Shown one piece after another: positions 13,417 through 32,499 of a stretch of DNA of 64,000 bases (positions are counted from its first letter, which is position 1; the number at the start of each line of letters is the position of its first letter). A program made the translations under genes and the position numbers. The notes beneath the pieces are model-generated. The model did no database searches, was not told where the DNA came from, and saw only the letters and a program-made list of their open reading frames with translations. The stretch is from Williamsia maris (GTDB taxonomy: Bacteria; Actinomycetota; Actinomycetes; Mycobacteriales; Mycobacteriaceae): the NCBI RefSeq assembly GCF_024171815.1, contig NZ_JAMTCJ010000003.1, forward strand, positions 930,001 through 994,000, in the 5' to 3' direction.

Positions 13417-13445
13417 TTCTAGGCCGAGGTTCGGTACGCTCGGCC

Positions 13446-13537
13446 CTGCGACTGGCGTAGGTGGTCGACCACCGGGAAGCGCAGCTCGAAGCATCGTCCG
13501 CCTGGGTGCTTCATCTCTCGAGATGAAGGACGCACCC
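13446..13537 (+). ncRNA. ZTP (pfl) riboswitch and its expression platform
   Basis: The leader of folD contains the conserved ZTP-aptamer blocks in order: GACTGGCG (13450-13457), ACCACCGGGAAGCG (13468-13481) and CCGCCTGGGT (13498-13507). P1 forms between CTGCG (13446-13450) and CGCAG (13480-13484), P2 is the GGTGG-TCGA-CCACC hairpin, and GGCG can pair with CGCC as the family pseudoknot. Downstream, GGGTGC (13504-13509) pairs with GCACCC (13532-13537) around TTCATCTC/GAGATGAA, hiding the AAGGA Shine-Dalgarno at 13526-13530. GGGT belongs to both structures, so ZTP binding should free the ribosome site and switch folD on. Confidence 0.9.
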
Positions 13538-18455: not shown

Positions 18456-19643
18456 CTATGCGGTGGTCACCCCGAAACGCTTCTCGAAGCCGTCGGGGAT
18501 GATGATGTCGTCGCGAGAGAGTTCGTGGATGCTTTTGCGGCCCAATCCCATCAGGGCGGAGTCGATGCCGCCGCGCAGGATGTCGAGGACGTTCTCGACG
18601 CCGGCCTGTCCGTTCGCGGCGAGTCCCCAGAGGTAGGCACGGCCGATCATGACGGCGTCGGCGCCGAGGGCGAGGGCTTTGACGACGTCGCTGCCGCGGC
18701 GGATGCCGCCGTCGAGCAGGACCTGCATGTCGGTGCCGACGGCGTCGGCGATCGGACCGAGCATCCGGATCGTGGCCGGGGTGCCGTCGAGGTTGTTGCC
18801 GCCGTGGTTCGACACCGACAGCGCGGTGGCCCCGATGTCCCGGGCACGTTTGGCGTCGTCGAGGCGCGTGATGCCCTTGACCATGAACGGTCCTCCCCAC
18901 TGTTCGCGGAGCCAGGCGAGGTCCTCCCAGGACGGTGGCGCGGTCTGCATCCACTGCCCGTAGGCCCCGAAGAACGTCGGCCCGGTCTGTCCCTTGTCGA
19001 CGACGTTGGGGGCCGTGAGGTCGGGGATGATGGGCTTGCCCTTGTTGAACCAGTCCCACGCGTAGCGCGGCTTGACCGCGATCTCCGGGGCCAGCTTGAG
19101 CAGCGCCTTGAGGTCGACCTTCTCCGGGATCTCCGGGCTGCCCCAATCGCGACCCATCGAGAACGACCAGTCGGTCGTCACGATGAGTCCCTTCGCACCC
19201 GCAGCTCGAGCACGCTCGGCACGTTTGAGGATGTCCTCGCGGGAGTTGAGCCAGTAGATCTGGAAGAACGTCTGCGGGTTCGCGGCCGCGACATCCTCGA
19301 CCGGCTTGGACGCAAAGCTGCTCAACCCCATGGCCGTTCCGCGTGCCGCGGAAGCACGGGCGACCGCGACCTCACCGTCCTTGTCGACGGCCTGGACCCC
19401 GGTCGGCGAGATCATCACCGGAAGCGAGATCTCCTGGCCCATGATCGACGTCGACAGCTCCCGCTCGGCATGCGCGCCCACGACGTGCGGTGCGAAGCCG
19501 ATCTCACCGAACGCCTCGACGTTGTCCTGCAGCGTGATGCCTTTCTCGCTGCCGGCGACAAGTGCGGAGTACACAGATCTGGGCAGGCGTTTCTTCGCCC
19601 GACGCTGCGCTTCGAGGACAGTCTCGAACCAGGGGTTGGCCAT
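18456..19643 (-). CDS. mftD: Mycofactocin system protein MftD
   Basis: A 395-residue FMN-dependent enzyme of the lactate-dehydrogenase/glycolate-oxidase fold. In mycofactocin synthesis MftD oxidatively deaminates AHDP to pre-mycofactocin, creating the redox-active alpha-keto amide. The N-terminus MANPWFETVLEAQRRAKKRL is characteristic of MftD. FMN-phosphate binding is visible in LLDGGIRRGSDVVKALALGA and MIGR. The catalytic His loop reads SNHGGNNLDG, with N-N where classical alpha-hydroxyacid oxidases have R-Q, consistent with a different substrate. It follows mftC by 48 bp in the mftABCD order, and mftE does not follow it here. Confidence 0.95.
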   Translation of the reverse strand: MANPWFETVLEAQRRAKKRLPRSVYSALVAGSEKGITLQDNVEAFGEIGFAPHVVGAHAERELSTSIMGQEISLPVMISPTGVQAVDKDGEVAVARASAARGTAMGLSSFASKPVEDVAAANPQTFFQIYWLNSREDILKRAERARAAGAKGLIVTTDWSFSMGRDWGSPEIPEKVDLKALLKLAPEIAVKPRYAWDWFNKGKPIIPDLTAPNVVDKGQTGPTFFGAYGQWMQTAPPSWEDLAWLREQWGGPFMVKGITRLDDAKRARDIGATALSVSNHGGNNLDGTPATIRMLGPIADAVGTDMQVLLDGGIRRGSDVVKALALGADAVMIGRAYLWGLAANGQAGVENVLDILRGGIDSALMGLGRKSIHELSRDDIIIPDGFEKRFGVTTA

Positions 19644-19691: not shown

Positions 19692-20906
19692 TCAGACGGG
19701 GGCGAACCCTGCGAGGGGGTTCTCGTCGCAGTCACGCGACGGGGGCCGTGTCATCAAGGTCAGGGGCACGCCGCGGGAGTGGTCCTTGTTGGCCGTCGGT
19801 GCGGTGCGCTCGCCGGCGAGCAAAGCCTCGCCGAAACCCTGCACGCATTCGGGGTCGGGACCCGCCAGTGGCAGTCCGGTGAAGAACTTCGCCGCCATGC
19901 AGCCACCGCGGCAGGCATCGAAGTGCGCACACTTGGTGCACGCGCCCGCGTTCTGCGGCTCACGGAGCTCGAGGAACAGCTCCGACTGCTGCCAGATGGT
20001 CTGAAAACCGCCGTCGGACTGGATGTTCCCGGCGAGGAAGTTCTCGTGGATCGCGAACGGGCACGCATACACGTCACCGATCGGATCGATCAGACACACG
20101 ACGCGGCCCGCGCCACACAGGTTGAGGCCGGGGAGCCCACCCGAACCCGGCTCCGCGAACGCCGCGAGGTGGAAGAACGAGTCACCGGTCAGCACACCCT
20201 CACCGTTCGCGACGAGCCAGTCGTAGAGCTCGCGCTGTTGTCCTGGCAGTGGATGCAGGTCATCCCACACATCCGCGCCGCGTCCCGACGGACGCAGACG
20301 CGTGATGCGCAGCGTCGCACCGAAGTTGTCGGCCAGCGCCTTGAACTCGTCGAGTTGGGACACGTTGTGACGGGTCACCACCACTGAGATCTTCGCGTCG
20401 GCAAACCCCGCATCCGCAAGGTTCTGCAACGCTTTGATCGCCATGTCGAACGAACCCGGCCCGCGCACAGCGTCGTTGACCTCCGCGGTGGCACCGTCGA
20501 GGGAGATCTGCACATCCACGTAGTCCGACGCCGCCAACCGCTGGGCGACCGCTTTGTCGATCTTCAACCCGTTGGTGGAGAACTTCACCCCCACCTGATG
20601 GCTCGTGGCGTAATCGACCAGCTCCCAGAAGTCCGGACGCACCGTCGGCTCACCACCACCGATGTTCACATAGAACACCTGCATCCGCTGCAACTCATCG
20701 ATGATCGCCTTGCACTGCGCGGTGTCGAGCTCGCGCGGGTCACGCTTACCCGACGACGACAGGCAGTGCACACACGACAGATTGCAGGCGTACGTCAACT
20801 CCCACGTCAAACAGATCGGGGCATCGAGCCCCTTCTCGAACTGATCGACGAGACGGCCCACCGCCGGCGGCGGAGACGAGGCGGGACGGTCGAGCGTGGT
20901 GGTCAT
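19692..20906 (-). CDS. mftC: Mycofactocin radical SAM maturase MftC
   Basis: A 404-residue radical SAM/SPASM enzyme that oxidatively decarboxylates the C-terminal tyrosine of MftA and then crosslinks Val and Tyr. The [4Fe-4S] motif CNLSCVHC gives Cys41, Cys45 and Cys48. GGGEPT follows as the SAM-binding loop. The SPASM domain has the auxiliary-cluster cysteines CGAGRVVCLIDPIGDVYAC and CTKCAHFDACRGGC. The ATG at 20906 has AGGAG 7 nt upstream. Upstream in-frame codons overlap mftB and are not used. It sits 8 nt after mftB, so it is cotranslated with its peptide chaperone. Confidence 0.97.
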   Translation of the reverse strand: MTTTLDRPASSPPPAVGRLVDQFEKGLDAPICLTWELTYACNLSCVHCLSSSGKRDPRELDTAQCKAIIDELQRMQVFYVNIGGGEPTVRPDFWELVDYATSHQVGVKFSTNGLKIDKAVAQRLAASDYVDVQISLDGATAEVNDAVRGPGSFDMAIKALQNLADAGFADAKISVVVTRHNVSQLDEFKALADNFGATLRITRLRPSGRGADVWDDLHPLPGQQRELYDWLVANGEGVLTGDSFFHLAAFAEPGSGGLPGLNLCGAGRVVCLIDPIGDVYACPFAIHENFLAGNIQSDGGFQTIWQQSELFLELREPQNAGACTKCAHFDACRGGCMAAKFFTGLPLAGPDPECVQGFGEALLAGERTAPTANKDHSRGVPLTLMTRPPSRDCDENPLAGFAPV

Positions 20907-20914
20907 GCGGACTC

Positions 20915-21244
20915 CTACGGTGCCGGGGTGGGGACGATGGTCTCCGAGCGCGCCAGCGACCGCAGCGCGTCGAGATACATCGGTTGGTCGGCCGCGCCGA
21001 TGCCGGAGGCGTCCAACGCGGCGTGTGCGCTGGGGTGGTCGGCGAGGGAGCGGACCAGATCGACGACGATCAGGTTCTTGAGGAACGACAGCTTGCGCGT
21101 CCCGAAGTGATACAGCAGGGCACCGAACGGTTCCGGGCGCAGGGCCACGCTCGGGTTGAGCACCCACGCGGCCGAAGCGTCGAACACCCTCGGACCATCC
21201 GTGGCACCAGTGGTGTCCGACGTCTCGGCCGTGTCGACGCTCAT
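20915..21244 (-). CDS. mftB: Mycofactocin precursor-peptide chaperone MftB
   Basis: A 109-residue PqqD-like RiPP recognition element that binds MftA and presents it to MftC. The recognisable core runs from WVLNPSVALRPEPFGALLYHF through TRKLSFLKNLIVVDLVRSL (the winged beta-sheet plus helices). The N-terminal 35 residues (SVDTAETSDTTGATDG) are low-complexity and probably disordered. The ATG at 21244 lies 1 nt after the mftA stop codon, indicating tight coupling, and mftC begins 8 nt downstream. Confidence 0.95.
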   Translation of the reverse strand: MSVDTAETSDTTGATDGPRVFDASAAWVLNPSVALRPEPFGALLYHFGTRKLSFLKNLIVVDLVRSLADHPSAHAALDASGIGAADQPMYLDALRSLARSETIVPTPAP

Positions 21245-21245
21245 G

Positions 21246-21368
21246 TCAGTAGACGCCGCACATACCGTCGATCGAGACCTCTTCGACAAGGCTCTCGGTG
21301 ACCAGCTCGGCAGAATCGCCGACGGGCGCGGTGACGTCGGTGGACGGGGTGGAGGTGTTCTCGGCCAT
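21246..21368 (-). CDS. mftA: Mycofactocin precursor peptide MftA
   Basis: A 40-residue ribosomal precursor. The C-terminal core IDGMCGVY is the invariant family ending, and the last Val-Tyr pair is what MftC and MftD convert into the cofactor. The leader TESLVEEVSIDG is the MftB-binding part, and the first 20 residues are variable and Thr/Ser-rich. The ATG at 21368 has AGAGGA 6 nt upstream. It is the first gene of the cluster, divergent from mftM over a 262-bp spacer that contains several CCGNNCGG boxes. Confidence 0.96.
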   Translation of the reverse strand: MAENTSTPSTDVTAPVGDSAELVTESLVEEVSIDGMCGVY

Positions 21369-21630
21369 GATGGTCCTCTCGATCGGGCTGTGATGTGCGC
21401 TCAGACTAGGAGCGTTCGATCGGCCTGCGGGTCCGTCCGGGCACCGAACCCACCGTTCGGAACGCCGACCCACCCGATCGGGTAGGTGACCCACCCGCCA
21501 CCAGGCCGCGATCGACCATCGAGCCGGTCGGACTCCGTCCGGACCCGCGCACTCGACGGGACGGTGAACCTACCGTCGGTAGAACGGCTGGAGCGCAACA
21601 GCTCAGGCTCTTCACAGAAGTGAGACGGAC
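21369..21630. promoter_or_regulatory. mftA-mftM divergent promoter region with CCGNNCGG boxes
   Basis: This 262-bp spacer has no gene. It contains CCGTCCGG (21433-21440), CCGTTCGG (21453-21460) and CCGATCGG (21474-21481), starting 20 and 21 bp apart, and two further boxes at 21524-21531 and 21535-21542. The first lies in GTCCGTCCGGGCA (21431-21443), which matches 12 of 13 bases of the site upstream of the alcohol dehydrogenase at 25718-25730. The ACCCACCC words at 21469 and 21490 flank the third box. Helically phased sites suggest cooperative binding by one regulator. Confidence 0.5.
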
Positions 21631-22479
21631 GTGACGCTCACCGCACCCCCGGTCGCTCGTCGGCTCGACTCCTTCGCCCCGACACCGCCCGGCGTCTGGG
21701 ACCGTGGCGCCGTCCACGTTCGTCGCGACCGCGGCCGGCGCACCGGATCGATCGACGCGCGACGCCACGGGGACGACATCCTGCTGCGGCACAACCTGAC
21801 CGGAGCCCATCTGTCAGACAGCCTGGTCGGCCGCACCACATCGGCGATCGCGGATGCGGGCGGCGGACGGGCCGAGTTCGAGGTCGCGATGGTGGGGTTG
21901 GTCCGGACCACCATCGACGATCCGGGCGAGGCCTGGACGGCGTTCTACCGCAACTCGCTGGACGAGTTGCTCAGCGGCGCCGCCCCGTTCGCCCCCATCC
22001 ACGAACGCGCCATCGCGACCGTGGTCGGATCGGTGCTCGACCTCGGCTCGTGCTTCGGCTTCTTCCCCCTGCGCATGGCGGCCGCCGATCCGACCCGAAG
22101 GGTGGTCGCCACCGATCTGCACGCTGACACCATGGCTCTGCTCGACGCCGTCGCCCCGCGTCTGGGCGTCACGATCGAGACCGTCCCGTGCGACGCCGCG
22201 TCGCTCCCGTTCCCGGACAGGTCGTTCGACACCGTCACCGCGCTGCATCTGCTCGAGCACGTGGACCGCGCGACGGGGCGCCGCGTGCTCGCCGAGGCGT
22301 GTCGCGTCGCCCGGCAGCGGGTCATCGTCGCGGTCCCCTACGAGACCGAACCCGCCGCCTGCCACGGACACGTGCGGTGCTTCGACCGCTCCGAGCTGCA
22401 CTGTGCCGGTCTCGAACTCGGCCACGACTTCCTCGTCACCGACCACCACGGCGGGTGGCTCACGATCGACGTGGGGTGA
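21631..22479 (+). CDS. mftM: Mycofactocin-associated SAM methyltransferase (MftM type)
   Basis: A 282-residue class I methyltransferase. The SAM loop is VLDLGSCFGFFPL (about 130-142), followed by VVATDLHADTM (motif II), VPCDAASLPFPDRSFDTVTALHLLEHV (here the D.VTALH.LEH motif) and a C-terminal Rossmann half with CHGHVRCFDRSEL. Location directly divergent from mftA and overall length fit MftM, which O-methylates the second glucose of the oligosaccharide chain on mycofactocin. The GTG at 21631 has GAGACGG upstream. It ends 9 bp from the convergent response regulator. The call rests on context plus family, because many actinobacterial methyltransferases share these motifs. Confidence 0.8.
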   Translation: MTLTAPPVARRLDSFAPTPPGVWDRGAVHVRRDRGRRTGSIDARRHGDDILLRHNLTGAHLSDSLVGRTTSAIADAGGGRAEFEVAMVGLVRTTIDDPGEAWTAFYRNSLDELLSGAAPFAPIHERAIATVVGSVLDLGSCFGFFPLRMAAADPTRRVVATDLHADTMALLDAVAPRLGVTIETVPCDAASLPFPDRSFDTVTALHLLEHVDRATGRRVLAEACRVARQRVIVAVPYETEPAACHGHVRCFDRSELHCAGLELGHDFLVTDHHGGWLTIDVG

Positions 22480-22488
22480 GCCGACGGC

Positions 22489-23121
22489 TCAGATCAGGCC
22501 GGCCTTGCTGGCCTCGTAGACCGCCTCGGCGCGTCGTCGGACGCCCAGCTTCCGCATGATGTTGCTGACGTGGAATTTCGCGGTGGTCGCGGAGATGAAC
22601 AGCGACGAGCCGATCTGCGCGTTGGACAGTCCGGTCGCGAGGAGTTTGAGCACCTCGAGCTCCCGATCACTGAGCCGGTTGTCGGCGGTGGCCCCGCTGG
22701 TCAGCGACCGCACCATGGCCGACGCGCTGCGGGAGTCGAAGGCCGATTCACCGCGGGAGACGGCACGGATCGCCCGGACCAGCTCGGTCGTGTCCACGTC
22801 CTTGACGACGTAACCGCGCGCACCCGCGTGCACCGCCTCGACCACGAGGCGTTCGTCGAGCGACGTCGTCAGCACCAGCAGACCCATCAGCGGGTGCGAC
22901 CGGGACAGCTCGGCGCACAGCGCGAGCCCTTCGAAATCCGAACCGGCGGAGAGCTTCAGGTCGATCAGCACGACGTCTGGGACGAGGTGCCCGGCCACGA
23001 CGACCGCCTCTTCCTTGGTGGCGGCCTCGCCGACGATGGTCAGGTCGGGTTCGCGTTCGAGGACCGACCGCAACCCCTCACGCAGGATGGCGTGGTCGTC
23101 GACCAGCGCGATGGTCGTCAC
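22489..23121 (-). CDS. NarL/LuxR response regulator (MnoR/MadR-like)
   Basis: A 210-residue response regulator. The receiver has the acidic pair DDH at 8-10, phosphoacceptor Asp54 in VVLIDLKLS, Thr at LVLTT and Lys in VVKD. The GerE-type HTH is at about 145-205 with LSDRELEVLKLLATGLSNAQIG and ISATTAKFHVSNIMRKLGV. The GTG at 23121 overlaps the kinase stop (GTGA). The same kinase-regulator arrangement next to a methanol dehydrogenase gene is described in Mycobacterium smegmatis as MnoS/MnoR, a regulator of methylotrophic alcohol oxidation. The likely targets are the CCGNNCGG palindromes upstream of mno, the alcohol dehydrogenase and mftA (inference). Confidence 0.85.
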   Translation of the reverse strand: MTTIALVDDHAILREGLRSVLEREPDLTIVGEAATKEEAVVVAGHLVPDVVLIDLKLSAGSDFEGLALCAELSRSHPLMGLLVLTTSLDERLVVEAVHAGARGYVVKDVDTTELVRAIRAVSRGESAFDSRSASAMVRSLTSGATADNRLSDRELEVLKLLATGLSNAQIGSSLFISATTAKFHVSNIMRKLGVRRRAEAVYEASKAGLI

Positions 23122-24461
23122 GACGCGTCCTCGCCGTCGTGGACCTCGGGCCGTGCGGCCGTCAGCGGGATGGTGGCGACGACCCGGACGCCACCGAGAC
23201 GCGAACGCCGGACCCGGAACTCGCCGCCGGCGTCGGCGACCCGATCGGCCATGTTGACCAGTCCCCGATGCATGCCGCCGAGGTCACCGCGACGCGCGAC
23301 GCCGAGTACCGACCGCAACGCGCCGGGCTCACCGCACCCGTCGTCGTCGACGGCGAGGCTCACCTGATGGGTGTCGTAGCGGAGCTGGATGCGGGCGCGG
23401 GTCGCCTCGGCGTGCACCGCGGTGTTGAACAGCGCCTCCCCCGCGACCCGCAGCAGGGTGTGGTCGAGGTCGCCGGGCAGCTCGACCGGGGTACCCCCGA
23501 CATCGACGGTCACGGTCAGCTCACCGGGCATGTGCACCACGCCGAGCTGGGCCAACATGTCCGGTAGCGACGACTTGTGGTGGTCGGCAGAGTGTTCGAG
23601 AGCGTAGATGGCCGACCGCAACTGGTCGACGGCCCGGCGCGTCAGTTCCTTGGCGAGGTCGAGTCGTTCACGGCGCTCGTCGGCGGGGATGTCGTTGCGG
23701 CACACCTCGATCTGCATGCCCGCCGACAGCACGGCCTGCGTCACGCTGTCGTGCAGCTCACGGGCGATCCGGTGCCGCTCCTCGTCGAGGACCCGATTGC
23801 GTTGCGCGGCTCCGAGTTCGCGTTGGGTGGCCTCGAGCTCGGCGTTGCGCGACTCGAGATCGGCGGCGGTGCGTCGTGCGTGCTCGAGCACCGCCGAGTT
23901 CTGCAACGCGACCGCCGTCTGCGACGCCAGGATGCTGACGACCGCGGCGTCGGTGGCGTCGATCGGACGACGCGTCCACGCGGCGAGCGCCCCGACATGC
24001 CCACCGCCGAGGGCCAGTGGGACACAGACGAAACGGTTCTCGGCGACGACCTCGTCGGCGATGCGGGCCCGACGGATGTTGTCCAGCAGGTCGACGACGT
24101 CGTCGGGCAGCGGCGGCCCCTCGACATCGCCGACGAGATACGGGGTGCCGTCGGGGCCGAGGACGAGACACCGCGGACCGGCGTCGACGAACGTGCCGTC
24201 GGCGAGTGCGAACACCGCCCACTGGGCGTCGAGGTGCACCCGGGCGGCCTCGACCACCTCGCAGATGAGACGTTCGGGTCCGTCGGACGTGCGCACCAGC
24301 GCGCCGGCGATCAGCCCGAGCGACGAGAGTGTCCGCTCCAACCGCGCCGTCGCCCCGCGGTACTGCGGGTAGAACGTGGACTTACCGGTGCGCAGCCCGG
24401 TCAGCCGCGTGAGGTCGCTCTGGTCGGCCATCGCCGCCACGAGCTCGGAGACGTCGGCCAT
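23118..24461 (-). CDS. Sensor histidine kinase with GAF domain (MnoS/MadS-like)
   Basis: A 447-residue kinase with no transmembrane segment, so it is a cytoplasmic sensor. A GAF domain spans about 70-205 (WAVFALADGTFVDAG to ILASQTAVALQNS). A coiled coil follows (ADLESRNAELEATQRELGAA), then the HisKA_3 phosphoacceptor helix RHRIARELHDSVTQAV, and the HATPase DDDGCGEPGAL and GLVNMADRV near the C-terminus. The ATG at 24461 sits 1 nt after the alcohol dehydrogenase stop, and its own stop overlaps the regulator. Coupling to the dehydrogenase genes suggests it senses alcohol or redox state. Confidence 0.85.
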   Translation of the reverse strand: MADVSELVAAMADQSDLTRLTGLRTGKSTFYPQYRGATARLERTLSSLGLIAGALVRTSDGPERLICEVVEAARVHLDAQWAVFALADGTFVDAGPRCLVLGPDGTPYLVGDVEGPPLPDDVVDLLDNIRRARIADEVVAENRFVCVPLALGGGHVGALAAWTRRPIDATDAAVVSILASQTAVALQNSAVLEHARRTAADLESRNAELEATQRELGAAQRNRVLDEERHRIARELHDSVTQAVLSAGMQIEVCRNDIPADERRERLDLAKELTRRAVDQLRSAIYALEHSADHHKSSLPDMLAQLGVVHMPGELTVTVDVGGTPVELPGDLDHTLLRVAGEALFNTAVHAEATRARIQLRYDTHQVSLAVDDDGCGEPGALRSVLGVARRGDLGGMHRGLVNMADRVADAGGEFRVRRSRLGGVRVVATIPLTAARPEVHDGEDAS

Positions 24462-24462
24462 C

Positions 24463-25680
24463 TCAGAGAGCGACCCGGAAGAGTGCCTCGGCGTCGGTGA
24501 GCGAGACCGGTCGCGGGTTCGTCGCCATGCACGCGTCACGTAGGGCGGACGCGGCCAGGCGTGGGATGTCGGCCTCGCGCACCCCGAGCTGTCCGAGGTG
24601 GCGGGGCACCCCGACGCGGCGGGCCAGCGCCTCGACCGCGTCGGCGACGGCGAGCGCCGCCTCGTCGGCCGGTCCGCGCGCCTCGTCGAGTCCCAGACCC
24701 AGCGCGATGGTCACGAACGGCGCCGGGTCCGCGGCTGCGTTGAAGCGGATCACGTGCGGGAGCAGGACCCCGTTGATCACGCCGTGCGGCAGGTCGAGCA
24801 GGCCGCCGACCTGGTGGCTCAACGCGTGCGCGGCGCCGAGTATGGCGTTGGTGAACGCCAGCCCGGCGTCGAGACTCGCCTGCGCCATCACCGAACGCGC
24901 ACCGACGGCCAGCGGGTCGGTGATGCATGCCCCCAACGACCCCATGACGGTGTTCACCGCGCGCAGGGCGTGGTGGTCGGTGAGCGGGTTATGCGCGCGG
25001 GAGACGAACGCCTCGATGCCGTGCGTCAACGCATCGAGACCGGTTGCGGCACTGAGCCACTCCGGCATCGTGGTGAGCAGTCGCGGGTCGATGACGGTGA
25101 TGTCGGGCACCAGGGCCCGACCGAGGATGGTGACCTTGGTGTCGCGGGTGGTGTCGGTGACGATGCAGAACTGCGACACGTCCGCACCGGTACCCGCGGT
25201 GGTCGGCACCATGACCAGCGGCGGGATGGGGCCGAGGACACGATCCACCCCCTCGTAGTCGAGGATCCGTCCACCGACACCGGCGAGGATCGCGATGCCC
25301 TTGGCGGCGTCCATCACCGATCCGCCACCCAGCGCGACCAGCACGTCACACCCGGCCGCCTGGTACACCTCGTGGCCCGCGGCGATCTCGTGGTCCTTCG
25401 GGTTGGGCGTCAGCGCGCTCCACACCGTGGGCTCGAGCCCGCAGGCGCGCAGGTGCGCCTCGACCTCGCTCATCCACCCGGCCTCGATCAGACCCGGATC
25501 GGTCACCAACAGCGGGCGCATACCCCCGAGTCGGACGGCCGCGTGCGCGGCCTCGACCGTCGAGTCGACGCCGAAGACGATCTCCGGGGCGTGGAACTTG
25601 ACCACCCGCCCCTGATCGGCGAAGGCACTCGAGACACCGGTCGCCGCCTGTGCATGCACAGCAGCCACCCCGGAACCCAT
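24463..25680 (-). CDS. Group III (iron-type) alcohol dehydrogenase
   Basis: A 405-residue metal-dependent alcohol dehydrogenase. NAD(H) binding is by GGGSVMDAAKG. The metal ligands fall in GLDALTHGIEAF, GAAHALSHQVGG and LPHGVINGVLLPH, giving the Asp and three His of this superfamily. Orthologous neighbourhoods in mycobacteria annotate it as 1,3-propanediol or lactaldehyde dehydrogenase type. The true substrate is not known. The ATG at 25680 begins MGSGVAAV. It follows the Ni/Co transporter by 59 bp, and that gap contains a 22-bp palindrome, so it may have its own regulated promoter inside the larger mno-to-regulator transcript. Tightly bound NAD with mycofactocin as acceptor is possible. Confidence 0.87.
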   Translation of the reverse strand: MGSGVAAVHAQAATGVSSAFADQGRVVKFHAPEIVFGVDSTVEAAHAAVRLGGMRPLLVTDPGLIEAGWMSEVEAHLRACGLEPTVWSALTPNPKDHEIAAGHEVYQAAGCDVLVALGGGSVMDAAKGIAILAGVGGRILDYEGVDRVLGPIPPLVMVPTTAGTGADVSQFCIVTDTTRDTKVTILGRALVPDITVIDPRLLTTMPEWLSAATGLDALTHGIEAFVSRAHNPLTDHHALRAVNTVMGSLGACITDPLAVGARSVMAQASLDAGLAFTNAILGAAHALSHQVGGLLDLPHGVINGVLLPHVIRFNAAADPAPFVTIALGLGLDEARGPADEAALAVADAVEALARRVGVPRHLGQLGVREADIPRLAASALRDACMATNPRPVSLTDAEALFRVAL

Positions 25681-25712
25681 GTGACCCAGCTTACAACCGC
25701 GCGACCTCAAAC

Positions 25713-25734
25713 CACCTGTCCGTTCGGGCAGGTG
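25713..25734. promoter_or_regulatory. 22-bp palindrome upstream of the alcohol dehydrogenase
   Basis: Arms CACCTGtCCG and CGGgCAGGTG surround a TT centre (one mismatched pair). Its core CTGTCCGTTCGGGCAG matches the element upstream of mno at 31172-31187 in 13 of 16 bases. It lies 33 bp upstream of the dehydrogenase ATG and 6 bp after the transporter stop, so it could act as a regulator site, as a transcript hairpin, or as both. Confidence 0.6.
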
Positions 25735-25739
25735 AGGCC

Positions 25740-26882
25740 TCACCGGCCCGAGGGCGAGCGGGCGCCGACCACCCCGGCGTCCAGGGCGTCGAAGCGGTCG
25801 TCGACCTTCGCCACCTTGTAGTAGATCAGGGCCCCGATCCACACCACGAAGAACGTCCCCACGACGAACTGTCCGACGCGTTCGAGGTTGATCGCCGCGA
25901 CGACGTCCCAGATCCCGCCGGCCAGACCGAACTCGTCGCCGAGCAGCGACAGTAGCTGCAAGGTGCCGATGACGAACGCCAGGAAGACCGACAACCCGGT
26001 CATCGTGATGTTGTAGTAGATCTTGCGGACCGGGGTGACGAACGCCCACCCGTAGGCCTTCGACATGAACACCCCGTCGATGGTGTCCATCGTGGTCATC
26101 CCCGCGGCGAAGAGCACCGGCAGCGCGATGATCGCCAGCGGGGGCAGTCCCCCGGCGATGGCCGTGGTGCCCGCGACCGCGAGCAATCCGACCTGGGTGG
26201 CGGTGTCGAAGCCGAGTCCGAACAGCAGTCCGAGCGGATACATCTGCCACGAGTGGTTGATCAGCTTGTCGTAGCGTCCGCGGAACAGCCGATTCATCAG
26301 GCCGCGCTTGGCCAGCAGTTCGTCGAGGGAGTCGTCGGAGAACTCACCGCGCTTGGCTCGCCGCCAGACCTTCACGATGCCGTAGAGCACCATGATGTTC
26401 AGCGCGGCGATCAGGTAGAGGAACGTGCCCGACACCAGGGTGCCGACGATCCCGCCCGGCCCGGAGAACGCCTCCTGGAACGCGGTGGCCTTCGCGGCGA
26501 CGATCGCGATCGCGCCGACGAACACCAGGACCACCGTCGAGTGGCCGAGGGAGAAGAACAACCCGACGGCCAGGGGCCGCTTGCCCTTCTGCAGCAGGAA
26601 GCGCGTGGTGTCGTCGATGGCGGCGATGTGGTCGGCGTCGAAGGCGTGGCGCATGCCCAGTGTGTAGGCCAGCAGGCCCGCGCCGGCGTAGACCAGGGTC
26701 CCGTCGGAACCGGTGAGGTTGTGGATGCGCGGGATCGAGTTGTAGTGGGCGAACAGGCCCCACCCGATCAGGTGCAGCACCACGAGGAACCCGACGATCA
26801 TCGCCAACCGCGGGATCTCGTCGCGGGTGAAGCGGCTCATCGGCACCGCCGGATCGTCCTTCTCGGCAACGGTCGTGGTCAT
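25740..26882 (-). CDS. NiCoT-family nickel/cobalt transporter
   Basis: A 380-residue membrane permease with about eight hydrophobic helices. The family signature RHAFDADHIAAIDDTTR lies in helix II, and LGFDTATQV and GMTTMDTIDGVFM give the other conserved metal-path segments. NiCoT proteins import Ni2+ and/or Co2+ with high affinity. The HAFDADH form is shared by Ni- and Co-preferring members, so selectivity is open. The ATG at 26882 overlaps the vWA stop (ATGA), tying metal uptake to the MoxR/vWA pair upstream. There is no urease or hydrogenase gene nearby, so the metal's client must be something else in this operon. Confidence 0.9.
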   Translation of the reverse strand: MTTTVAEKDDPAVPMSRFTRDEIPRLAMIVGFLVVLHLIGWGLFAHYNSIPRIHNLTGSDGTLVYAGAGLLAYTLGMRHAFDADHIAAIDDTTRFLLQKGKRPLAVGLFFSLGHSTVVLVFVGAIAIVAAKATAFQEAFSGPGGIVGTLVSGTFLYLIAALNIMVLYGIVKVWRRAKRGEFSDDSLDELLAKRGLMNRLFRGRYDKLINHSWQMYPLGLLFGLGFDTATQVGLLAVAGTTAIAGGLPPLAIIALPVLFAAGMTTMDTIDGVFMSKAYGWAFVTPVRKIYYNITMTGLSVFLAFVIGTLQLLSLLGDEFGLAGGIWDVVAAINLERVGQFVVGTFFVVWIGALIYYKVAKVDDRFDALDAGVVGARSPSGR

Positions 26883-28408
26883 CGTCCTACCTGTTCTTCC
26901 GCCAGCGCGTCGGCCGTGCTGGTGAGTCCGGTGAGGTCGCGTACGACGCGAACTCGTTGACAGTATTCGGCGTATTGCGGGAGATCGCAGGACCCGAGCC
27001 CCCACGAGTACCTCGGCTCAGGTGTGAGCCAGATCGTCTCGCGGGCGCGACGGGTGATCTCGGCGAAGGCCTCGACGTTCGGGTCGAGCCCGTTGCTGCG
27101 TCCGTCGGCCAGCACCAGCACCGTCGTCCGCCGGCTGACGGCGTTGCCGTGCTCCTCCAGGAACTGCCCGAACGCGGCGCCGTGATCGGAGTTCGCGTCG
27201 ACGTCGATGACGTCGCCACCGAACACCAACCCGAGCGCCTTCTCCACGGAGTGGTCGCTGAACAGGTCGGTCACCTCGGCGAGCTCGGAGACGAAGACGA
27301 AGGTGCGCACCTGACTCACCAGGTCCTGCAGGCCGTGGACCAGATGGAGGGTGAAGCGTGCGGTGGCGCGGACCGACAGACTCACGTCGGCGAGCAGCAC
27401 CAACCGCGGCTTGTCCTCGCTGCGCGCCACGGTCACCGGTCGGAACGGCACGCCGTCGTAGCGCATGTTGTGCCGCATGGTGCGCGACGAGTCGACCCGT
27501 CCACGGGCCCCGGCCTTCCGCCGATGGGTCAGCGCACCGTGCAGGCTCTGGGTGAGTCGGCGCAGGACCTCCTCGAGTTCGGCTCGCTCGTGCTCACCGA
27601 CATGGTCGACGGTGGCGACGGCCTTCTCCTCGTGTCCCTCGATGATCCGATTGTCCAGCGCCAACAGCGATTCGAGATGCTTCTTGAGCGCGGCGGGCAG
27701 GTTCTCCAGCACCCCGGCCAGTCGCCTGCGCAGATCCGCGGCGTCGTCGGTGACGTCGGTCTGGGCGTCGTCGGCAACGTCGTCGAGCCACCCGAACAGC
27801 GCGTCCTGCTGCGCGATGGAGAGGTCGGCGTCGACACGGGTCCCGCTGGAGGTGGAGATGTCTCCGGGGGCCGACGCCCCGCGCAGGTGGTCGGTCTCGA
27901 TCTGGACCCGGTTGCCCTCCCCCAGCACCGACACCGCGTCCTGGGAGAACACGATCTCGTCGGTCATCGAGGCCAGGTCGATCTTGTTGGCCTCCTGATG
28001 CAGGTTGTACTGCGTCGCGAGGTCATCGGGATCGAAGTACTCGCGGATGTCCGACGGCGCACCGTGTTCGTGTCCCTGCTGCGGCAGCTGGCCCGGTTCC
28101 TCCGACAGTGTGAACTGCTCGAGCGTCCCCTCGTCGGACAGGTCGTCGTGGCTGTGGGTGTGCCCGTGGTCGTCGGCGTCCGGCTGGACCCGGACGAGCG
28201 CGAAGAAGAGGTCGAAGACGTCGTCGAAGATCGCGTCGCCGTCGATGTCCTTGACCAACGCGTTGCGAAGCGCCTCCTTGAGCACCGACCGGTTCGTGAG
28301 CACCCCGGGCAGCGCGGCGGCGTTCATCGCGTCGATGGTCTCCGGGGTGGAGATCCGCAGCCCACGCAGACGCAGCAGTCGGACGAAGCGGTGCAGGCTC
28401 TGCTCCAC
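26879..28408 (-). CDS. vWA-domain protein, CoxE/NorD-like partner of the MoxR ATPase
   Basis: A 509-residue protein. The C-terminal third is a von Willebrand A domain with MIDAS residues DVSLS at 341-345 and VLVLADGRSNG later. The N-terminal two thirds is an acidic helical region. Two histidine clusters are visible, DDHGHTHSHDD at about 79-89 and QGHEHG at 111-116. MoxR AAA+ ATPases act with vWA partners to insert or exchange metals and cofactors in client enzymes (CoxD/CoxE, NorQ/NorD, CbbQ/CbbO). It starts 3 nt after the MoxR stop and overlaps the NiCoT start, so the three are made together. The client is probably a metal alcohol dehydrogenase in the same operon (inference). Confidence 0.85.
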   Translation of the reverse strand: MEQSLHRFVRLLRLRGLRISTPETIDAMNAAALPGVLTNRSVLKEALRNALVKDIDGDAIFDDVFDLFFALVRVQPDADDHGHTHSHDDLSDEGTLEQFTLSEEPGQLPQQGHEHGAPSDIREYFDPDDLATQYNLHQEANKIDLASMTDEIVFSQDAVSVLGEGNRVQIETDHLRGASAPGDISTSSGTRVDADLSIAQQDALFGWLDDVADDAQTDVTDDAADLRRRLAGVLENLPAALKKHLESLLALDNRIIEGHEEKAVATVDHVGEHERAELEEVLRRLTQSLHGALTHRRKAGARGRVDSSRTMRHNMRYDGVPFRPVTVARSEDKPRLVLLADVSLSVRATARFTLHLVHGLQDLVSQVRTFVFVSELAEVTDLFSDHSVEKALGLVFGGDVIDVDANSDHGAAFGQFLEEHGNAVSRRTTVLVLADGRSNGLDPNVEAFAEITRRARETIWLTPEPRYSWGLGSCDLPQYAEYCQRVRVVRDLTGLTSTADALAEEQVGR

Positions 28409-28411
28409 TGA

Positions 28412-29677
28412 TCAGTCCTTGTTCGTCGACGGCGACTTCTTGGGACCGAATCCACGCGCGAAGGACGATTTCCTGGGCGACGACGTCGACGGCGCGGGCT
28501 CGGCGCCGGTGCTGGCCCCGTAGTAGTTGTCGCTGTGCCTTCCGGGGGTGTCCTTGGCCGCGCGCACCGCCTGCCCCGAGGGGCCGGCGTCGTCGTGATC
28601 GTGATCGTGGTCGTGCCCCGGACCGTGCTCGTGCGCCCCGTGGCCGTGATCGTGGCCGTGACTGTGGCCGTGGGCGTGCTCGTCGATGACCGCATTCGGA
28701 TCGATGAGCCGCGGGATGACGGCCGTGGCCTTGGTGACGTCCTTGTCGTACTTCACCACCACCGAGACGGTGTCGTTGAGCAGTTTCGGGGTCAGCTCGG
28801 TGGCGCCGAGGACGGCCAGGGTCCGGGCCCAGTCGACGGTCTCGGAGATGCTCGGCGACTTGCGCAGATCGAGATCGCGCAGTCCGCGGACGACGTCGAC
28901 GAGTTGCGCGGCGAGCGACTGCGCGAGCCCGGTGTCCTTCGAGACGACGATCTCGAGCTCGCGCTCGGCCGTCGGATACCCCAGGAAGCTGTGCAGGCAA
29001 CGGCGTTTGAGCGCCGCGGACAGGTCGCGGGTGTTGTTCGACGTCAGCACCACGTAGGGCCGGATCTTCGCGACGAACGTACCGATCTCGGGCACCGACA
29101 CCTGGTTCTCACCGAGCAGCTCGAGCAGCACCGCCTCGAGGGCCTCGTCGGCCCGGTCCACCTCGTCGATGAGCAACACGACCGGTTCCGGGGAGCGGAT
29201 GGCCTCCAGCAGCGGTCGCGGGGCCAGGAACCGCTCGGAGAAGAACACGCTCTCCTGCGCCGAGATCCGGTCCACCGCCTCACCGAGGGTGTCGGCGTCG
29301 GCGACGAGCTGACCGATCTTCTCCTTGAGCACCTGGGTGTAGAGCAACTGCTTGCCGTAGTCCCACTCGTACAGCGCCTTGGTCTCGTCCTGGCCCTCGT
29401 AGCACTGCAGGCGCAGCAACCGTCGCCCGGTGACCTGCGCCAGCGCCTTGGCCAGTTCCGTCTTGCCCACACCGGCCGGCCCCTCGAGCAGGACCGGCTT
29501 GTCGAGTCGGGTCTGCAGGAAGACCGTGGTCGCGAGTCGCTCGTCGATGATGTACCCGGTCTCGCCGAACCGTGCGGTGACGTCCTCCACGGAGTCGAAA
29601 TCGTGCACGGGCAGGGACTCGAGATCGGTGCTGGGAGCGGGCTTCTCGTCGACGGGGGCGACGTTGTCAGGCGACAC
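28412..29677 (-). CDS. MoxR-type AAA+ ATPase with histidine-rich C-terminal tail
   Basis: A 421-residue AAA+ protein. Walker A GPAGVGKT is at 66-73, Walker B VVLLIDEVDRAD with Asp171-Glu172, sensor 1 LTSNNTRDLS at 211-220, and the lid domain ends near 330. Residues 334-361 contain 13 histidines alternating with Gly, Asp and Ala, a stretch like the nickel-storing tails of HypB and UreE. A Ser/Pro/Lys tail follows. Such a tail is not usual in MoxR proteins. With the NiCoT permease and vWA partner it suggests an ATP-driven metal loader. It lies 84 bp downstream of mno and 3 nt upstream of the vWA gene. Confidence 0.9.
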   Translation of the reverse strand: MSPDNVAPVDEKPAPSTDLESLPVHDFDSVEDVTARFGETGYIIDERLATTVFLQTRLDKPVLLEGPAGVGKTELAKALAQVTGRRLLRLQCYEGQDETKALYEWDYGKQLLYTQVLKEKIGQLVADADTLGEAVDRISAQESVFFSERFLAPRPLLEAIRSPEPVVLLIDEVDRADEALEAVLLELLGENQVSVPEIGTFVAKIRPYVVLTSNNTRDLSAALKRRCLHSFLGYPTAERELEIVVSKDTGLAQSLAAQLVDVVRGLRDLDLRKSPSISETVDWARTLAVLGATELTPKLLNDTVSVVVKYDKDVTKATAVIPRLIDPNAVIDEHAHGHSHGHDHGHGAHEHGPGHDHDHDHDDAGPSGQAVRAAKDTPGRHSDNYYGASTGAEPAPSTSSPRKSSFARGFGPKKSPSTNKD

Positions 29678-29761
29678 GGATCGGCCTTCCTCGGTGGTGT
29701 GTGCGTGGGGGTGGAGCCGGCGCCCCGCCTGCTCGGGCGGGGCGCCGGAGTACGGGACTGC

Positions 29762-31054
29762 TCAGCCGATCAGGTCGTCGAGGTCGCCGACCATCGAGTG
29801 CTCGACCACCGGGAACACGGTCTCGAAGGTGCACTCCTTGAGGTTGCCCGGCGTGCACGCGTCCCCGAGGACGTGATTGGTGATGCGGGCGACGTCCTTC
29901 TCGTCGCCGGCGATCGTCTTGGCGTTCTCGTAGTACTTGGTCGGTCCGGTGCCGAGCCGGTTCTTGCTGTAGCTGTCGGCGTGGACGTCGACGAAGCGCT
30001 CCGGGATGCCCACATCACGCAGCAACTGGATCGCCGCCTCGAGGGCCGCGTGGGACGCGCGCTGATCGGACATGCCGTGGGTGTCGATGCCCATGGCGAC
30101 GGCGATGTCGGCGAACTTGCGGTAGTCCGCGGTCATGTTGAACGCCCACACCCGGGGCAGCGCGATGGCGTTGTTCAGGCCGTGATGGGTGTCGTAGAAG
30201 GCACTGATCGCGTGGCTGATCGAGTGGATGATGCCGAGGCCACCGGAGTTGAAGGCCTGGGCGGCGATGTACTGCGCGTACATCATCCCCTCGCGCCCGG
30301 GCAGGTCCTCACCGTTCCAGGTGGCCGCGCGCAGGTTCTCCACGGTCATCTTGATGGCGTGCAGCGCGTTGCCCTTCGACGGTTCGAAGTTCAGCCGCGA
30401 GACGTAGGGCTCGCTGGCGTGGGCGAGCACGTCGAACCCGCACTGTGCGGTGTAGTCGGTGGGGCACGTGTAGTAGAGCACCGGGTCGTCGATGGCCAGG
30501 GTGGTCACGCTGGCGTCGTCGAACGCCACGTACTTGTGCGGGTTGTCCGGGTCGGTGGTGGTGTCGGTGATGACGTAGGCCCACGACGTCTCCGAACCCG
30601 TTCCGGCCGTGGTGGACACGGCGATGTGCGGCGGGTTCTTGGGGTTCTCGCTCTTGTTGAACCCCTCGAACTCGTTGACGTTGCGACCGTCGTGGGCCAC
30701 CGCGATCCGGGCGCCCTTGCACGCGTCGTGGCTCGAGCCGCCGCCGATGGAGACGAAGCTGTCGCACTTGGCCTCGGAGTACATCGAGACCGCGTCCATG
30801 ACGTTGTAGTCCTTGGGGTTGGACTCGACCTTGTCGTAGACCACCACCTCGAGACCGTGGTAGCGCATCGACTCGACGATGTTGTGCACGGTGTCGGTGC
30901 CGCGCAGGCCCGACGTCATGACGAGGGTCTTCTTGAAGCCGAGCTTGAGGGCCTCGGGCCCGATCATCTCGTGGGCTCCGGGACCCATCATCGCGCGGGG
31001 GAAGGGGTGGAACTCTTTGATGGGGAACGGCTTGAGTAGGTCGTCGACCTGCAT
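29762..31054 (-). CDS. mno: NDMA-type methanol/alcohol dehydrogenase (group III metal ADH)
   Basis: A 430-residue decameric-type methanol:NDMA oxidoreductase of actinomycetes, which oxidises methanol and other alcohols with tightly bound NAD(P) and passes electrons to an external acceptor now believed to be mycofactocin. The dinucleotide site is VSIGGGSSHDACKG. Metal ligands lie in CGFDVLAHASEPY, GIIHSISHAISAF and YDTHHGLNNAIALP. The N-terminus MQVDDLLKPFPIKEFHPFPR is typical. The ATG at 31054 has AAAGGA 6 nt upstream. It heads the operon with MoxR, vWA, NiCoT, a second ADH and the two-component system, and a palindrome at 31172-31187 lies in its promoter region. Confidence 0.93.
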   Translation of the reverse strand: MQVDDLLKPFPIKEFHPFPRAMMGPGAHEMIGPEALKLGFKKTLVMTSGLRGTDTVHNIVESMRYHGLEVVVYDKVESNPKDYNVMDAVSMYSEAKCDSFVSIGGGSSHDACKGARIAVAHDGRNVNEFEGFNKSENPKNPPHIAVSTTAGTGSETSWAYVITDTTTDPDNPHKYVAFDDASVTTLAIDDPVLYYTCPTDYTAQCGFDVLAHASEPYVSRLNFEPSKGNALHAIKMTVENLRAATWNGEDLPGREGMMYAQYIAAQAFNSGGLGIIHSISHAISAFYDTHHGLNNAIALPRVWAFNMTADYRKFADIAVAMGIDTHGMSDQRASHAALEAAIQLLRDVGIPERFVDVHADSYSKNRLGTGPTKYYENAKTIAGDEKDVARITNHVLGDACTPGNLKECTFETVFPVVEHSMVGDLDDLIG

Positions 31055-31308: not shown

Positions 31309-32499
31309 TCACTTGGTGATCTTGGTGACGCGGCCGGCACCGACGGTGCGGCCACCCTCACGGATCGCGAAGCGCAGGCCCTCGTCCATGGCGACCGGCT
31401 GGATCAGCTTGACGCTCATCTCGGTGTTGTCACCGGGCATGACCATCTCGGTGCCCTCGGGCAGGGTCACGACGCCCGTCACGTCAGTCGTACGGAAGTA
31501 GAACTGGGGACGGTAGTTGTTGAAGAACGGGGTGTGGCGACCGCCCTCGTCCTTCGACAGGATGTACGCCTGGCCCTCGAACTCGGTGTGCGGGGTCGTG
31601 GTGCCGGGCTTGATGACGACCTGGCCGCGCTCGACGTCCTCACGCTTGAGTCCACGCAGCAGCAGACCGGCGTTGTCGCCCGCCTCTGCCGAGTCGAGCA
31701 GCTTGTGGAACATCTCGATACCGGTGACGGTCGACTTGGTCGACTTCTCCTTGATGCCCACGATCTCGACATCCTCGTTCACGTTGACCGAACCGCGCTC
31801 GACACGACCGGTGACGACGGTGCCACGACCGGTGATCGTGAAGACGTCCTCGACGGGCATGAGGAAGGGCTTCTCTGTCTCGCGGACGGGGTCCGGAACC
31901 GAGTCGTCGACGGCCTGCATGAGCTCGGCGATGGCCTCGCCCCACTTCTCGTCACCCTCGAGGGCCTTGAGAGCGGAGACCTTGACGACCGGCGCATCCT
32001 CGTCGAAGTCCTGGGCGGCCAGCAGTTCGCGGACCTCCATCTCGACGAGCTCGATGATCTCCTCGTCGTCGACCATGTCGGCCTTGTTCAGTGCGACGAG
32101 GATGTACGGCACGCCGACCTGGCGGGCGAGCAGCACGTGCTCACGCGTCTGGGGCATCGGGCCGTCGGTGGCGGCGACGACGAGAATCGCACCGTCCATC
32201 TGGGCCGCACCGGTGATCATGTTCTTGATGTAGTCGGCGTGACCGGGGGCGTCGACGTGCGCGTAGTGACGCTTCTCGGTCTGGTACTCGACGTGGGAGA
32301 TGTTGATCGTGATACCACGAGCCTTCTCCTCCGGCGCCTTGTCGATCTGGTCGAACGCGAACGCGGCGTTGAGGTCCGGGTACTTGTCGTGCAGAACCTT
32401 GGTGATGGCCGCGGTCAGCGTGGTCTTGCCGTGGTCGACGTGACCGATCGTGCCGATGTTGACGTGCGGCTTGTTCCGCTCGAACTTCGCCTTACCCAC
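31309..32499 (-). CDS. tuf: Elongation factor Tu
   Basis: A 396-residue translational GTPase that delivers aminoacyl-tRNA to the ribosome. G1 is GHVDHGKT, the switch region EKARGITI, G3 DAPGHADY and G4 NKAD, all intact. Domains II and III follow with [13 protein letters not shown] and GGRHTPF. Length and sequence are normal for actinobacteria. The ATG is preceded by AGGAGG about 6 nt upstream. It is the last gene of the rpsL-rpsG-fusA-tuf operon, 104 bp after fusA, a gap large enough for an extra tuf promoter, as is common. Confidence 0.99.

Follow-up and report, generated by a model that had tools for sequence, protein, structure and literature searches.

Why should a nickel/cobalt importer be encoded in the midst of an alcohol dehydrogenase operon? 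This question is raised by a seven-gene locus of Williamsia maris that starts with mno, the gene of a mycofactocin-linked methanol dehydrogenase, and that also encodes a MoxR ATPase, a von Willebrand factor A (vWA) protein and NicT, an importer of the NiCoT family. The locus lies in a stretch of 64,000 nucleotides (contig NZ_JAMTCJ010000003.1, positions 930,001 to 994,000), hereafter called the window, whose own numbering is used throughout. Actinobacterial nicotinoprotein methanol dehydrogenases are usually assumed to contain zinc, magnesium or iron. Here we find that the operon represents a distinct branch of mycofactocin-linked methanol dehydrogenase (type B) with a MoxR/vWA activator pair of its own. 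At most type B loci both proteins of the pair are histidine-rich; at the loci of the other branch (type A) neither is. We propose, as a tentative reading, that type B Mno relies on a MoxR/vWA pair of the metallochaperone type, which would load a divalent metal into the enzyme, with nickel or cobalt as the leading candidate.

The original prediction had described seven genes that follow each other on the minus strand, and all of them are present at 22489-31054, in the transcription order mno, MoxR, vWA, NicT, a second Fe-type alcohol dehydrogenase (ADH), the sensor kinase MnoS/MadS and the response regulator MnoR/MadR. The first gene, mno (29762..31054, ATG at 31054), encodes a type B methanol (alcohol) dehydrogenase of the N,N-dimethyl-4-nitrosoaniline (NDMA)/mycofactocin-linked kind and scores 651 bits with TIGR04266, over the cut-off of 625. 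It is followed by a type B AAA+ ATPase of the MoxR kind (28412..29677; Pfam AAA_5) with Walker A at residue 66 and Walker B at residue 168. This ATPase adjoins a CoxE/NorD/CbbO-like vWA protein (26879..28408; Pfam VWA_CoxE, 118 bits) with a DxSxS motif of the metal ion-dependent adhesion site (MIDAS) type at residue 341, the two together forming a MoxR/vWA pair. NicT (25740..26882) exceeds the cut-offs of both NF052500 (466.6 bits against 450) and TIGR00802 (350 against 333), and the second group III (Fe-type) ADH (24463..25680; Pfam Fe-ADH) is ErcA-like, at 461 bits with NF041833, under the cut-off of 550. MadA is described in an excerpt of a review as the mycofactocin-dependent ADH of Rhodococcus jostii RHA1 (PMC13210347). 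The NCBIfam models for MadS and MadR are passed here by the sensor histidine kinase (23118..24461, ATG at 24461; NF047786, 560 bits against 500) and the response regulator (22489..23121; NF047785, 337 bits against 300), whereas MoxR stays under the MadB cut-off (NF047784, 385.8 bits against 475) and the vWA protein under that of MadC (NF047783, 272.1 bits against 600).

Several junctions had been predicted to overlap or to measure 1-3 nt, and four such junctions could be read directly: MoxR and vWA are 3 nt apart, vWA and NicT share an ATGA overlap at 26882-26879, the second ADH and the kinase are 1 nt apart, and the kinase and the regulator share a GTGA overlap. Looser junctions separate Mno from MoxR (84 nt) and NicT from the second ADH (59 nt). 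The mno-moxR gap (29678-29761) contains, by eye, a GC-rich inverted repeat without a T run, which possibly sets the expression of mno above that of moxR. In a search of the window at the gathering threshold, no Ni/Co or cobalamin riboswitch was found, the sole riboswitch match being a ZMP/ZTP riboswitch (13438-13514, plus strand) located where a FolD-like reading frame begins.

A search with TIGR04266 gave 49 matches over the cut-off in 48 of 121 genomes of the family, and matches in 15 of 394 genomes of the class. Flanking sequence was retrieved for the 48 family matches besides the window's own (47 genomes, one of which, G038, has two) and for seven type B loci from the class sample; one type A locus of the class sample (G487) lies outside this set. 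Fourteen further type B loci came from a scan of genome contigs with six seed peptides, one of them HDHDHDHD. Thirty-five loci were classed as type A, with an Mno 58-65% identical to that of the window, and 34 as type B (73-97% identical), the window making 35; one locus with a partial MoxR beside a 67% identical Mno (L065) stands outside both counts. In the Mno tree, which includes 12 of the 35 type A rows, the two types split with 100/100 support. In all 55 other loci found through Mno (35 type A and 20 type B), mno is followed on its own strand by MoxR and then vWA, and because the pair stands there in every one of them, its place beside mno is not a matter of chance. The 14 scan loci have the same mno-MoxR-vWA order, but they were found via MoxR. 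Of the neighbourhood co-occurrence that the original prediction had offered as a check, the MoxR and vWA part therefore holds, whereas NicT taken alone fails, being present at only 6 of 70 Mno loci.

The type B pair is distinguished by its histidines. In the window, MoxR carries a C-terminal tail (residues 334-366, 28580..28678, minus strand) with 13 histidines in 33 residues, and the vWA protein carries two motifs, DDHGHTHSHDD (28142..28174) and QQGHEHG (28061..28081), on the same strand. When a protein with at least five histidines in any 40 residues is counted as histidine-rich, both MoxR and vWA qualify in 29 of the 35 type B loci (window included) and neither does in five (L011, L014, L139, L140 and L141), while one locus is partial (L164, with four histidines in MoxR and five in vWA). 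The MoxR tail is present in 28 of the 34 other type B loci. Among the type A loci, read in frame with type A queries, a histidine-rich MoxR was seen in 0/35 and a histidine-rich vWA in 0/35; five of these loci were re-read with such queries (L118, out of frame, and L105, L120, L125 and L137, with a late start), the vWA of L105 being read only from about residue 124. Likewise, none of the 53 complete MoxR homologues among the 55 read from other scan loci has such a tail. The coincidence of the two segments supports the metal-handling role that the original prediction had assigned to MoxR/vWA with no mention of them, and the extensions are, as judged from their sequence, probably of a metal-binding kind. 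Mno positions 7, 23, 233 and 237 covary with the histidine-minus state of L011, L014 and L139-L141. A literature search pairing MoxR with 'histidine-rich' found no paper in the one collection that it covered. In that collection, mycofactocin appears with MoxR in a single paper, a study of a prophage, with nickel in five papers and with cobalt in three.

Low-confidence stretches of the AlphaFold models take in the two vWA motifs (residues 73-118) and, nearly throughout, residues 334-421 with the MoxR tail, which would fit flexible arms in models that are of low confidence overall (predicted local distance difference test, pLDDT, of 60 for vWA and 57 for MoxR). The best fold matches of this low-confidence MoxR model are NorQ and CbbQ. 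The C-terminal part of the vWA model has the vWA fold; NorD and CbbO were absent among the matches listed for that model, and the vWA sequence gave no match when compared with solved structures.

A pair of this kind might instead remodel Mno mechanically, in the style of CbbQ/CbbO on Rubisco, by freeing an inhibited site, inserting a tight NAD(P) or docking mycofactocin, with the histidine parts buffering metal or being mere low-complexity sequence. The type A pair has no histidine-rich part of any sort, from which it follows that the basic work of the pair needs none, and mycofactocin-associated dehydrogenases are described in excerpts of two papers as nicotinoproteins with non-exchangeable NAD (PMC3023750, PMC5264612; nickel in the excerpt of the latter is that of a purification column). 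However, the vWA motifs are conserved, unlike random repeats, and the five loci that lack them lack the MoxR tail as well, and we regard purely mechanical remodelling as unlikely.

A Ni/Co importer gene (for NicT or CbiM) is present at 9 of the 35 type B loci, all nine of them histidine-rich, and at none of the 35 type A loci, for which stretches of 11-15 kb, about 3 kb of each upstream, were examined. Fisher's test of 9/30 histidine-rich or partial type B loci against 0/35 type A loci gives 4.5e-4 with kinship ignored. The importers come in three arrangements, namely NicT within the operon (two genera), NicT divergent upstream, and an ArsR-CbiM-N-Q-O cassette upstream. The six loci with NicT are all of type B, five with the gene in the operon and one with it divergent. 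Within the window's own genus, mno-linked NicT was found in all four Mno-bearing genomes among the eight members searched, and G036, of another genus, shows the mno-moxR-vWA-NicT order with the same vWA/NicT ATGA overlap. In G006, NicT (50% identical) and the ADH2-kinase-regulator genes are divergent and upstream of mno. Three genomes of genus g9 (G090, G038 and G104) have, directly upstream of mno and co-directional with it, genes for an ArsR/SmtB regulator, CbiM, a PDGLE/CbiN-like protein, CbiQ and a CbiO-like ATPase. One of these, G038, has an mno locus of each type (L126, L143), with the cassette at the type B locus only, which makes this genome a natural test case.

Family tests covered all five cassette proteins of L174, three of L175 and two of L176; the rest were assigned by tblastn, and the CbiO of L176 is an open reading frame (ORF) reading. 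ArsR and CbiQ are over the NCBIfam cut-offs, Pfam CbiM, CbiQ and PDGLE are matched in L174, and CbiO is over the TIGR01166 cut-off of 212 bits in L174 (215) and under it in L175 (201). CbiM passes Pfam and stays under the NCBIfam equivalog cut-offs, at best 159 against 219, and for this reason the family leaves nickel versus cobalt undecided. When CbiM was searched in the 70 Mno genomes, it was within 3 kb of Mno in G090, G038 and G104 only. In all three sampled type B genomes of g9, the sole CbiM match lies directly before mno, and the g9 genomes with type A only (G008, G057 and G117) gave no CbiM match. The 14 scan-locus genomes have no CbiM or NicT in the fetched flanks; in the five of them that were checked, CbiM lies on contigs other than that of mno (one further CbiM, of G510, is outside this check). 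Clustering of the neighbours of the 34 type B loci for other metal genes returned CbiM-type genes in three loci, an outcome that covers the best 40 clusters, assessed by eye from the beginnings of the sequences, and that would miss genes occurring once.

In the Mno tree, G006 and g9 form one clade (100/97), and the window's genus and G036 form another (99/94). Since G006 and g9 belong to one clade, unrelated importers fill the same upstream slot, and the placement of the importers on the tree calls, by parsimony, for three recruitments. The link to Ni/Co import that the original prediction had seen is thus real, although it concerns a minority of type B loci, and beyond that prediction it extends to an unrelated CbiMNQO system in another genus. 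We also counted NicT or CbiM anywhere in the genome, excluding matches with E near 1e-3 and including sub-cut-off NicT (as in G119 and G008). One or the other occurs in 30/30 genomes with a histidine-rich or partial type B locus, in 23/34 with type A only and in 2/5 histidine-minus ones. This genome-wide profile was rejected as proof, since those two histidine-minus genomes have NicT.

On the reading that we tentatively favour, a divalent metal, more probably nickel or cobalt than zinc, would enter the cell through NicT in W. maris and through CbiMNQO in g9. The histidine-rich MoxR tail and vWA loop would collect and hold the metal, a MoxR hexamer with vWA as its adaptor would open the Mno oligomer using ATP, in the manner of NorQ/NorD, and the metal would then enter the D208/H212/H277/H291 site of Mno, the putative client. 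Alcohol would act through MnoS/MnoR to turn on the operon, and the electrons would pass to mycofactocin. A more specific form of this reading would make type B Mno a nickel (or cobalt) enzyme and its MoxR/vWA pair an ATP-driven metallochaperone whose AAA+ ring holds the metal on its own histidine-rich tails, supplied by importers that the operon recruited at least three times; it appears to us possible but doubtful.

A number of observations weigh against the nickel/cobalt loading reading. The seed peptide HDHDHDHD is a possible source of bias, since 14 of the 34 type B loci besides the window came from the scan that used it; among the 20 that were reached by way of Mno, 16 have both proteins histidine-rich, one is partial and three have neither. 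The histidine-rich trait changes only two to three times on the tree, and because of this, the independence of the MoxR/vWA coincidence from descent is not demonstrable; an independent-pairs test of the MoxR tail against the vWA loop reached no significance, the changes being too few. At 26 of the 35 type B loci there is no adjacent importer, and the genome-wide presence of importers is confounded by B12 and urease.

NicT also occurs without mno. The Mno-less congeners G018 and G094 carry an orthologous NicT directly behind tuf, and the Mno-less G103, which belongs to the same genus as G036, has NicT 3.4 kb from tuf. An importer dedicated to Mno would be found only with Mno, so NicT, called dedicated in the original prediction, is not supported as a dedicated or generally conserved partner, given its rarity at Mno loci and its retention behind tuf in these two congeners. 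At their loci (L154 and L155), NicT comes next after tuf, a stretch of about 15 kb revealed no mno genes, and no vWA remnant was seen before NicT when three frames were read by eye. Further on in L154 there is a P450 gene (Pfam), as in the window (9881-11218).

NicT could thus be a plain bystander, an old tuf-linked importer for urease or B12 around which the mno genes arrived. The tuf-NicT loci without mno, the P450 gene found farther along in L154 as in the window, and the NicT of Mno-less G103, 3.4 kb from tuf and basal in the NicT tree, speak for it. On the other hand, G036 belongs to another genus and has the same order and ATGA overlap with no tuf beside it in the fetched stretch, and a bystander leaves the CbiMNQO of g9 and the NicT of G006 unexplained. 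In the NicT tree, G018 and G094 fall within the own-genus group (87/97), and G036 and G103 lie outside it, basal. As G036 is basal to the group that holds G018 and G094, the cassette may predate the Mno-less form, which counts against a bystander. Loss of mno with retention of NicT would fit this tree, with G103 leaving the polarity open. On balance, we consider a plain bystander distinctly unlikely.

No urease or hydrogenase had been seen in the original prediction, and this holds for the window as far as it was examined and, genome-wide, for the NiFe-hydrogenase large subunit, of which there is no match; the genome does, however, have urease (G000:C4:93371). Urease is present in all eight genus members and in 9/9 genomes with an importer beside mno, compared with 5/12 other type B genomes tested, and the single NicT of G079 is the mno-linked one in a genome that also has urease. 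NiFe hydrogenase was found in 0/8 genus members and in 8/26 genomes tested. The importers beside mno may therefore serve urease. Because Mno-less congeners keep NicT and urease co-occurs, NicT serves more than Mno, and Mno probably shares it with urease instead of having it to itself.

The metal site does not settle the matter. The Mno ligands D208, H212, H277 and H291 were compared in an alignment of 63 Mno rows (the window, all 35 of type A and 27 of type B, with L158-L164 left out); 62 rows show the D/H/H/H pattern, and the exception, L118, is an out-of-frame read. Ligand differences were rejected as a clue to the metal, the four residues being the same in type A and in type B with and without histidine-rich parts. 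These ligands common to both types count as a further point on the opposing side, and because they are the same, nickel or cobalt over zinc, iron, manganese or magnesium is not decided. Published excerpts differ as well: the group III methanol dehydrogenase of Cupriavidus necator is reported to prefer nickel (PMC8741260), whereas Bacillus methanolicus Mdh holds zinc with magnesium (PMC3602061) and BmMDH2 holds manganese, type III ADHs being able to bind zinc, cobalt or manganese (PMC12926040). An excerpt on M. smegmatis reports lower mno transcript levels under zinc excess and in a zur mutant (PMC7174638), a hint at metal control that does not name the cofactor.

The histidine-rich pair might handle zinc or another common divalent metal for Mno, the Ni/Co importers being coincidental or meant for urease or B12. 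The zinc and magnesium of B. methanolicus Mdh, the range of metals bound by type III ADHs, the zinc response of the M. smegmatis transcripts, the presence of urease in 8/8 genus members and 9/9 importer-linked genomes, the sole, mno-linked NicT of G079 and the persistence of NicT without Mno would all agree with this. Such an account has to face two unrelated families of Ni/Co importers at type B loci of four genera, against 0/35 at type A loci, and the sole CbiM of g9 directly before mno in 3/3 type B genomes, with none in the three type A-only genomes. We rate zinc or another common metal as unlikely.

Downstream, the operon adjoins mycofactocin genes. These are mftM, for a mycofactocin oligosaccharide methyltransferase (21631..22479, plus strand; NF041255, 331 bits against 200); a candidate gene for the precursor peptide MftA (21246..21494, minus strand), an ORF chosen by its sequence, whose C-terminus IDGMCGVY we take to be the MftA motif; mftC, for the radical SAM maturase (19692..21167, minus strand; TIGR03962, 638 bits against 265), given as the ORF, with the true start further downstream; and mftD, for the pre-mycofactocin synthase (18456..19643, minus strand; TIGR03966, 700 bits against 471). 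A second mftC of the same genome is at G000:C3:923451-924476, about 25 kb from the one at 19692-21167. Two mftC genes were also counted in G062 and G079 and in the histidine-minus genomes G024, G067 and G050, one in G094, G044, G107, G036 and G006, and none turned up in G018, in G103 or in the fragmented G120. In the window's genus, a second mycofactocin set seems to belong to the mno locus itself. On the other side, upstream of mno, lie tuf (31309..32499, minus strand; EF-Tu by its sequence), fusA and two ribosomal protein genes, named from sequence. At 46504-49283 (minus strand), two adjacent similar proteins with propeller-like repeats, noticed by eye, are apparently a tandem duplication.

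How much of this arrangement is new? The order Mno-AAA-(vWA)-ADH-MnoSR is already known, because the M. smegmatis cluster has it. According to excerpts of two papers, MSMEG_6242-6236 encode Mno/Mdo, an AAA ATPase, a hypothetical protein, a 1,3-propanediol dehydrogenase, MnoS, an S-adenosylmethionine (SAM) methyltransferase and MnoR, and MnoSR controls the operon (PMC11303327, PMC7174638); excerpts of two others state that MSMEG_6242 is needed for growth on ethanol and is linked to mycofactocin (PMC6529628, PMC11778925). The window shares with it the order of Mno, AAA ATPase, second ADH, MnoS and MnoR, a methyltransferase gene, the regulator families and the mycofactocin link, whereas no NicT is named in the excerpts that describe the M. 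smegmatis operon. That operon is type A by description alone, and its hypothetical protein 6240 would be the vWA by its position. Type B Mno, in contrast, is about 60% identical to type A and has a different, histidine-rich MoxR/vWA pair.

NorQ/NorD, CbbQ/CbbO and CoxD/CoxE likewise combine an AAA+ MoxR with a CoxE-type vWA, but here the putative client is a soluble group III ADH and MoxR has a histidine-rich tail. As given in an excerpt of one paper, NorQ/NorD are needed for the insertion of non-haem iron into nitric oxide reductase, and a hexamer, ATPase activity and MoxR-vWA binding were shown for MSMEG_0748/0751, a different pair (PMC12657314). The importers differ from the known NiCoT and energy-coupling factor (ECF) CbiMNQO importers in that they lie in or beside an alcohol dehydrogenase operon. 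Histidine-rich extensions on metal-delivering proteins are presumably also a feature of the nickel chaperones HypB, UreE, CooJ and SlyD, likened here by description only; in our case, the extension is on an AAA+ MoxR and its vWA partner. To our knowledge, how MoxR/vWA machines recognise and load metal is open for most of their clients. What goes beyond the known arrangement is probably a histidine-rich pair of the metallochaperone type with repeated recruitment of Ni/Co import. As pairs with and without histidine-rich parts occur in nature beside clients whose ligands are identical, the metal question can be put to a direct test, and if the proposal is true, nickel or cobalt would be added to bacterial methanol and ethanol oxidation.

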